Below are positions 24,921 to 25,121 of a stretch of DNA of 64,000 bases, in pieces. Each line of letters starts with the position of its first letter. Position 1 is the stretch's first letter. Under the pieces are notes generated by a model. The model did no database searches, had not been told where the DNA came from, and worked only from the letters and a program-made list of their open reading frames with translations. The position numbers and the translations under genes are program-made. The DNA comes from Lachnoclostridium sp. An76 (lineage in GTDB: Bacteria; Bacillota; Clostridia; Lachnospirales; Lachnospiraceae), in the NCBI RefSeq assembly GCF_002161355.1, contig NZ_NFHL01000002.1, positions 372,001-436,000 of the forward strand, read 5' to 3'.

Positions 24921-24948
24921 TAGTCAAAAGGAAGGAAACCCGTATAAT
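24921..24948 (+). promoter_or_regulatory. Possible plus-strand promoter for the structured leader
   Basis: TAGTCA (24921-24926) and TATAAT (24943-24948) with a 16-base spacer. Two more TATAAT words follow at 24966 and 25098, so the real start point is uncertain. Confidence 0.4.
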
Positions 24949-24963
24949 CCCGGGAGGATTTGA

Positions 24964-25103
24964 GGTATAATGATTACACATCCGTGTAATCCGAAGCGAT
25001 TCCATCGCTTCGCCCCGCTCCCGCGGGGATTATACCGGGACCCACGGCTTGAAAAGTAAATGCCGCTTGCGCGGCGCTTCCTTTTCTGCGCCCGTGGTAT
25101 AAT
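24964..25103 (+). ncRNA. Highly structured leader or palindromic element (four-way junction plus hairpin)
   Basis: GGTATAAT (24964-24971) pairs with ATTATACC (25029-25036) and encloses three abutting perfect hairpins: GATTACAC/GTGTAATC (24972-24991, loop ATCC), CGAAGCGA/TCGCTTCG (24992-25012) and CCCCGC/GCGGGG (25013-25028). No unpaired base lies between the stems. A second long imperfect hairpin follows: CCACGG (25042-25047) with CCGTGG (25092-25097), GAAAAG with CTTTTC, and GCCGC with GCGGC. It ends in another TATAATG 18 bases before the YwaF-like start codon. It could be a cis-acting leader RNA or a mobile palindrome. It is not a tRNA: there is no anticodon-loop or T-loop signature and no CCA. 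Confidence 0.45.
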
Positions 25104-25121
25104 GTAAAAGAGGTGTGAAAG

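Follow-up and report, generated by a model that had tools for sequence, protein, structure and literature searches.

A folded repeat in the -10 box of promoters of a Lachnospiraceae genus, probably a promoter-preserving mobile element

The locus and its fold

The window, a stretch of 64,000 nucleotides from Lachnoclostridium sp. An76 (contig NZ_NFHL01000002.1, positions 372,001 to 436,000), contains a ywaF-like gene preceded by a strongly folded unit. This unit consists of a four-way junction and a long imperfect hairpin, and its parts are listed in Table 1. An earlier interpretation made from the letters alone (the sequence-only reading) had described the junction as an 8-bp outer stem enclosing three hairpins, with no unpaired base between the stems over 73 bases, followed by a second long hairpin and punctuated by three TATAAT words. 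All of these parts are present, with the correction that hairpin 2 has nine base pairs rather than eight. The first TATAAT word matches, by eye, a CCGTATAA-like block that several relatives have ahead of their ywaF promoter, and this block stands before both the filled site of the window and the empty site of the related genome G030.

Table 1. Features of the folded unit and its surroundings in the window.
Feature	Position	Strand	Basis or remark
Four-way junction and long hairpin	24964-25036 and 25042-25097		window
Outer stem, 8 bp, GGTATAAT / ATTATACC	24964-24971 / 25029-25036		
First TATAAT	24943-24948	+	not an element end
GGTATAAT: predicted extended -10 box, outer stem 5' strand and unit left end	24964-24971	+	
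Second TATAAT	24966-24971	+	inside GGTATAAT
Hairpin 1, 8 bp	24972-24991	+	fold; double-sided changes in 7/8 pairs
Hairpin 2, 9 bp	24992-25012	+	fold; double-sided changes in 6/9 pairs
Hairpin 3, 6 bp	25013-25028	+	fold; double-sided changes in 5/6 pairs
Outer stem 3' strand, ATTATACC	25029-25036	+	complements GGTATAAT at either unit end
Hairpin 4, long, imperfect, conserved core AAATGCCGC..GCGGCGCTT	25042-25097	+	
Right-end TATAAT	25098-25103	+	joint to the next unit in tandem arrays
132 bp absent from the empty site	24972-25103 (equivalently 24964-25095)	+	comparison with G030; genomic copies
ywaF-like gene, Pfam TMEM164 family, 239 aa	25122-25841	+	downstream of the unit

The minimum-energy fold of positions 24937-25110 contains the junction both as RNA and as DNA. 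Its stability corresponds to z = -5.1 for RNA and z = -7.0 for DNA, and none of 200 dinucleotide shuffles was equally stable in either calculation. The RNA centroid structure lacks the outer stem and hairpin 3, and the DNA centroid structure retains the junction. At the gathering score of Rfam, neither the window nor seven further loci gave a match; at E values up to 5, eight low-scoring matches of other kinds appeared.

A dispersed and often tandem repeat

The unit is a dispersed repeat of about 130 bp that often occurs in tandem, and not a leader RNA peculiar to the ywaF-like gene. A nucleotide search of its own genome, which the sequence-only reading had proposed as a check, returned 19 matches at eight places. 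At several of them the units follow one another head to tail every 129-130 bp, each starting with TATAATGAT followed by T or C and ending in a GTGG-like sequence, after which the next TATAAT begins. At two of these places (G000:C21:217056-217513 and G000:C23:183184-183540) the first unit begins with TATAATGATT and the later units with TATAATGATC, a difference that breaks one pair of hairpin 1.

Among 60 relatives searched, 20 of 36 genomes of the same genus matched, as did none of the 24 from other genera of the order. A covariance model derived from 54 distinct full units matches 42 of 58 genomes of the genus, its own included (E <= 0.001). When named genomes were scanned for the pattern of the unit, 24 stretches emerged, 17 of them labelled Mediterraneibacter and the others Scybalocola (2), Anaerobutyricum, Ruminococcus, Lachnoclostridium, a Lachnospiraceae bacterium and one Paenibacillus; many of the scanned genomes are metagenome bins, in which mis-binning is possible. 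The Paenibacillus pattern match (L030), which has no profile match, was taken as chance. Collections of phages and plasmids yielded no match to the element, and two viral contigs (L312, L313) match the pattern of the unit's left end. No split copy, the form in which an autonomous element would be a candidate, occurs among the element loci examined.

The genes downstream of 112 arrays, whose functions were judged from sequence by eye, fall into 50 clusters from 42 genome labels; named contigs may duplicate labelled genomes, so the true number of genomes may be slightly below 42. Some loci are common to several species, with up to 12 genome labels at a single locus. Units at different loci of one genome share a mean identity of 0.833 and units at the same locus across genomes 0.786, compared with 0.762 after shuffling of labels, where none of 500 shuffles reached either value. 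For the 56 units that have relatives of both kinds, the nearest one lies at the same locus elsewhere in 31 cases and in the same genome in 24, with one tie. Together, the identities and the nearest relatives indicate that units persist at loci and are also homogenised, or spread, inside a genome. Old insertion followed by concerted evolution, rather than recent movement, may account for part of the distribution.

Position and orientation at promoters

With respect to the next gene, 82 arrays lie in the sense direction and none in the antisense direction; 30 were undecided by the length of open reading frames and two have too little sequence for the comparison. For the 30 left undecided, inspection by eye finds a purine-rich site and a sense start codon. 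The left boundary is also uniform, as 110 of 114 distinct arrays start at model position 1-3, that is, at GGTATAAT. On the right, 80 arrays end complete and 34 end in an incomplete unit, and 38 of the 80 complete ends are directly followed by the apparent start of another, truncated unit.

The left flanks were compared for the 104 of 114 arrays that have an exact TATAAT and enough flanking sequence (10 were dropped), which gives 90 distinct flanks, orthologous loci included and hence not all independent. Their common motif is TRTGGTATAAT, with T at position -3 before TATAAT in 81 of the 90 and a purine at position -4 in 88, and both of these preferences fit the extended -10 motif. The best match to TTGACA at a spacing of 16-18 averages 3.42 of 6 positions, compared with 2.50 in shuffled flanks (0 of 1000 reach this value), and TTG at a spacing of 17 is found in 14 flanks, compared with 0-4 flanks for any other spacing between 10 and 26. 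The right ends of the units have no -35-like hexamer (mean 1.06 over 87 flanks). Judged from these motifs, the left end of the unit is a predicted sigma-A extended -10 box, with a -35-like hexamer of the host located 16-18 bp upstream. Locus after locus, this promoter box forms one strand of the outer stem, a feature absent from the sequence-only reading. A transcript initiated from the left -10 box would begin about 7 bases downstream, inside hairpin 1, and half of the junction would be missing from it, with the 5' arm of the outer stem and a large part of hairpin 1 left out.

Empty and filled sites

The ywaF-like gene of the window is present in 51 of the 58 genomes of the genus, and the best 30 of these 51 upstream regions were read by eye, in line with a further check proposed in the sequence-only reading. 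Five (the window's own included) carry a full unit, two a remnant, one is a clean empty site and 16 have a TATAAT-like box at the corresponding place; the remaining six were not classed. The clean empty site belongs to G030 (locus L283), whose YwaF protein is 95% identical. Its alignment with the window is gapless except for 132 bp, which can be placed at either of two positions (Table 1) because GGTATAATG stands at both ends of the insert; the empty site has one copy of GGTATAATG and the filled site two. As to a target-site duplication, the empty site has one -10 box and the filled site two, but the -10 box also belongs to the fold of the unit itself. G030 is empty among occupied close relatives (G000, the genome of the window, together with G077 and G078). 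Since G077 and G078 are occupied, the G030 site may represent a precise loss of the unit.

Two further loci give a comparable picture. At a locus neighbouring a LysM-like gene (the LysM-neighbour locus), 22 orthologues were found among 24 genomes searched, 16 of which had been picked for having no element. By eye, 14 of the 22 show a plain promoter of the form TGnTATA(A/C)T; four (the window's genome included) carry units of the type described so far, termed family 1, one carries a unit of a second type, termed family 3, one has a diverged element-like insert and two were not classed. At the third locus, the best 30 of 57 upstream regions include 22 with a plain TGnTATACT at the corresponding place (by eye), one family-1 unit, one family-3 unit and six that are different or not classed. 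At these two loci the sequence is TGGTATAAT or TGGTATACT where a unit is present, and the base before TATA differs at nearly all empty sites. The left -10 box at occupied sites could be either that of the host or the unit's own. In G012, a genome that the covariance model does not match at the applied threshold, two loci (L134 and L354) also contain inserts at -10 boxes, possibly representing a diverged or a further family.

Other families and exchange in the same slot

Family 3 was traced from the insert of G026 at the LysM-neighbour locus. Its core, CACTTGGCGAGGT..TCGAGCCTAGTG, is by inspection dissimilar to family 1, and DNA matches to it occur in 40 of 58 genomes of the genus, that of the window included, many of them to the core only. 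Four of 20 loci read (L314-L317) contain a full unit between two identical -10 boxes, TATACT in three of them and TATAAT in one; most of the other loci read are not at a -10 box. Loci noted for this family are L135:1358-1463, L314-L317, L321, L327 and L332. The core is also scattered elsewhere, apparently including places near ribosomal-protein-like genes (by eye).

One promoter is occupied by both families: G079 carries a family-1 unit (L081) where G071 carries a family-3 unit (L317). The flanks of the two are near-identical, reading ..GTATGG before the left TATAAT and GATTG(C/T)GTTCCGCTGCGCGG after the right TATAAT. No other single observation hints as strongly at cassette-like joining as this exchange at the -10 box.

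In the family beyond this genus, the covariance model matches 8 of 199 further genomes (E <= 1e-4), some of them mainly through hairpin 4. These copies represent family 2, found in other Lachnospiraceae (L257-L260, L266-L277), in which the hairpin-4 core is inverted relative to the promoter. By eye, 10 of 16 family-2 copies start at TATAAT, four at a one-base variant and two at neither. A sense start codon lies within the printed stretch in 14 of the 16, and two are undecided.

These observations bear on a simple alternative, in which the unit is a promoter-borne repeat that grows by slippage and spreads by gene conversion or recombination between -10 boxes, with no dedicated enzyme. Such a process would readily produce head-to-tail arrays with truncated last units, and it agrees with the higher identity of units within a genome than of units sharing a locus. 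Nevertheless, the eight or nine bases shared at the -10 box would hardly suffice to reach some 50 promoters, and the exchange between families 1 and 3 in one slot looks like the joining of cassettes. Spread by slippage and conversion is therefore considered unlikely.

Conservation of the pairing

Across the 54 distinct units, 97.0% of cells are paired. Double-sided changes occur in 27 of 47 pairs, compared with 16.5 in shuffles (0 of 500 reach the observed value), in counts that are inflated by the relatedness of the sequences. When partner columns are slid by 1-3 positions, pairing falls to 36-48%. The number of further pair types, 49 compared with 50.2 in shuffles (407 of 500 reach it), is not above chance. 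Although the alignment was built independently of the structure, one of its sequences served to draw that structure. On a tree, 60 double-sided changes from one Watson-Crick pair to another were inferred. The outer stem gives little evidence of covariation because it is nearly invariant, with a double-sided change in one of its eight pairs and three pairs that never vary. The structure is under selection. The sequence-only reading had considered chance formation very unlikely, and both the copies in the same genome and the double-sided changes agree with it; the covariation analysis that it called for has likewise found that the stems covary.

The mismatches give information on the level at which pairing is maintained. 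If a sense RNA were under selection, G.U would be expected to be tolerated more than A.C. On the sense strand, mismatched cells are G.T in 28 cases and A.C in 46, and the events placed on the tree number 40 to A.C and 25 to G.T, a modest excess (binomial p = 0.08). As wobble is not favoured on the sense strand, pairing appears to be kept at the DNA level or on the opposite strand, which is suggestive rather than conclusive. Given that A.C exceeds G.T, whatever moves the unit would be predicted to act better on the bottom strand.

The same data weigh on the proposal that the unit is a class of structured cis-regulatory leader RNA, such as an attenuator, a thermosensor or a stability element, recruited by many genes and kept for its function. 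The sequence-only reading had offered an unrecognised RNA class of this kind as one of its two interpretations. Units do lie in leaders in the sense direction, usually near a start codon, their stems covary, and some loci are occupied in several species. The 50 downstream clusters among 112 arrays, however, show no functional coherence by eye, no Rfam family corresponds to the unit at the gathering score, and the site is empty in a close relative (G030). Furthermore, a transcript starting at the unit's own -10 box would omit one strand of the outer stem and begin within hairpin 1, yet hairpin 1 covaries in seven of eight pairs, and A.C mismatches on the sense strand are no rarer than those of G.T. 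As the primary nature of the unit, a regulatory leader RNA is quite unlikely.

Candidate mover

Derivatives of IS200/IS605 elements insert 3' of a fixed short sequence, carry imperfect hairpins and lack inverted terminal repeats, all of which fits the present unit. A REP/RAYT or IS200/IS605-type mechanism would have a Y1 (HUH) transposase move single-stranded hairpins and insert them 3' of TATAAT. Proteins with a Y1_Tnp match are found in 49 of 58 genomes of the genus, and RAYT-like Y1 proteins of about 245-309 aa in many of them. In the genome of the window, RAYT-like Y1 genes lie at G000:C20:336956-337285 and G000:C25:73113-73439; about 1.8 kb downstream of the former lies a unit, and between the two a LysM-like gene (by eye).

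At the LysM-neighbour locus of G000 and G007, the unit has a RAYT-like Y1 gene at a distance of 1.7-1.8 kb. A Y1 gene stands beside the same locus in G073 and G061, where the promoter is nonetheless empty, and the closeness in G000 and G007 therefore reflects shared gene order. Within the genus, the association of Y1 genes with the element is weak (31/38 against 11/20, Fisher p = 0.06, hand-sorted by open-frame length; 30/37 against 12/21 in a recount with a limit of 240 aa). Outside the genus, Y1_Tnp matches are absent from 5 of 8 element-bearing and 4 of 14 element-free genomes. None of 40 Y1 stretches, most of which hold long RAYT-like genes together with about 1.2 kb of either flank, contains a unit, whereas the REP literature describes RAYT genes as flanked by their REPs (PMC2817692). 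A Y1 transposase as the mover is thus not supported by the flanks of these mostly RAYT-like genes, by presence in the genus or by presence outside it, and is very unlikely.

A probable promoter-preserving mobile element

The unit is probably a non-autonomous, promoter-preserving mobile element that lodges in sigma-A -10 boxes. The other interpretation of the sequence-only reading, a mobile palindromic element folding as a cruciform, gains support in its first part from the many copies, tandem arrays and empty sites, and the cruciform is plausible in light of covariation without a preference for sense-strand wobble. A putative recombinase or transposase would handle the folded unit as single-stranded or cruciform DNA and join it at TATAAT, in the manner of a circle that integrates through a single crossover at the -10 box. 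With a -10 box left on both sides, the host promoter would survive and the unit would become part of the 5' UTR. Insertion would be nearly harmless because the two boxes keep the promoter, and any effect on expression of the host gene would be secondary. Recombination between the -10 repeats could remove the unit and restore the promoter. Units chain head to tail at the -10 box, and a dissimilar unit can fill the same slot. Points that weigh against mobility are the absence of a mover among the candidates considered, the possibility that many insertions are old, and the fact that the window locus fits either gain or loss. Both the Y1 and the slippage explanations overlap with the preferred one, and the likelihoods assigned to them need not add up to a whole.

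A broader and more tentative possibility, somewhat doubtful at present, is a cassette system addressed to the -10 box. Dissimilar families of folded DNA would share the promoter -10 box as their integration joint and be exchanged or stacked in one orientation by a putative recombinase, perhaps one acting on the DNA strand opened by RNA polymerase at that box. Within the genus at least families 1 and 3 would belong to it, joined in other Lachnospiraceae by family 2, whose hairpin-4 core is also that of family 1.

The usual view of small bacterial repeats is that they persist by landing in places where they do little harm. The present repeat appears to differ in that it sits in the highly sensitive -10 box and leaves a box on either side. 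If the mobile-element explanation is right, it would account for the strongly folded 5' ends of many leaders in a common gut genus and would provide a recurrent natural experiment on leader structure. It would also point to a putative enzyme whose DNA target is the promoter or the open promoter complex.

Comparison with known systems

No published description of such a repeat was found in the open-access literature among the matches listed, and as far as tested the unit fits in full the definition of neither promoter-bearing MITEs, BOX elements nor mobile promoters. Correia elements and promoter-bearing MITEs are described as short non-coding repeats upstream of genes that contain sigma70-like promoter sequences (PMC10969869). 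The present unit is likewise short, non-coding, dispersed upstream of genes in many copies (about 130 bp, eight places, 42/58 genomes) and associated with promoter sequence. MITEs have terminal inverted repeats, whereas the ends of this unit are direct copies of the -10 box: both are copies of GGTATAAT, and the sequences just inside them are not mutually inverted (by inspection). The unit also differs from MITEs in being seen in one orientation only and in using a -35-like hexamer outside itself.

BOX elements of pneumococcus are presented as modular, tandem-capable interspersed repeats that form stem-loops, and BOX, RUP and SPRITE as over-represented between convergent genes (PMC3049150). The present units resemble BOX in being modular, tandem-capable and stem-loop-forming, and differ in lying at promoters, in the sense direction and joined at the -10 box. 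REP and REPIN sequences are characterised as imperfect palindromes with complementary changes, dispersed outside genes (PMC2817692). The unit is similarly an imperfect palindrome with compensatory changes, and it differs from REPs in being absent from all 40 Y1 stretches.

Work entitled 'Promoter propagation in prokaryotes' reportedly deals with putative mobile promoters. A promoter sequence repeated before non-homologous genes is found here as well; unlike a putative mobile promoter, the unit lies inside an existing promoter at the -10 box and brings no -35 element. Integron cassettes form head-to-tail arrays in one orientation, recombine at sites that fold as single strands, and allow different cassettes in each slot. 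The present units resemble them in their head-to-tail order, their single orientation and the occurrence of different units in one slot, and differ from them in containing no gene and in having the -10 box as their joint.
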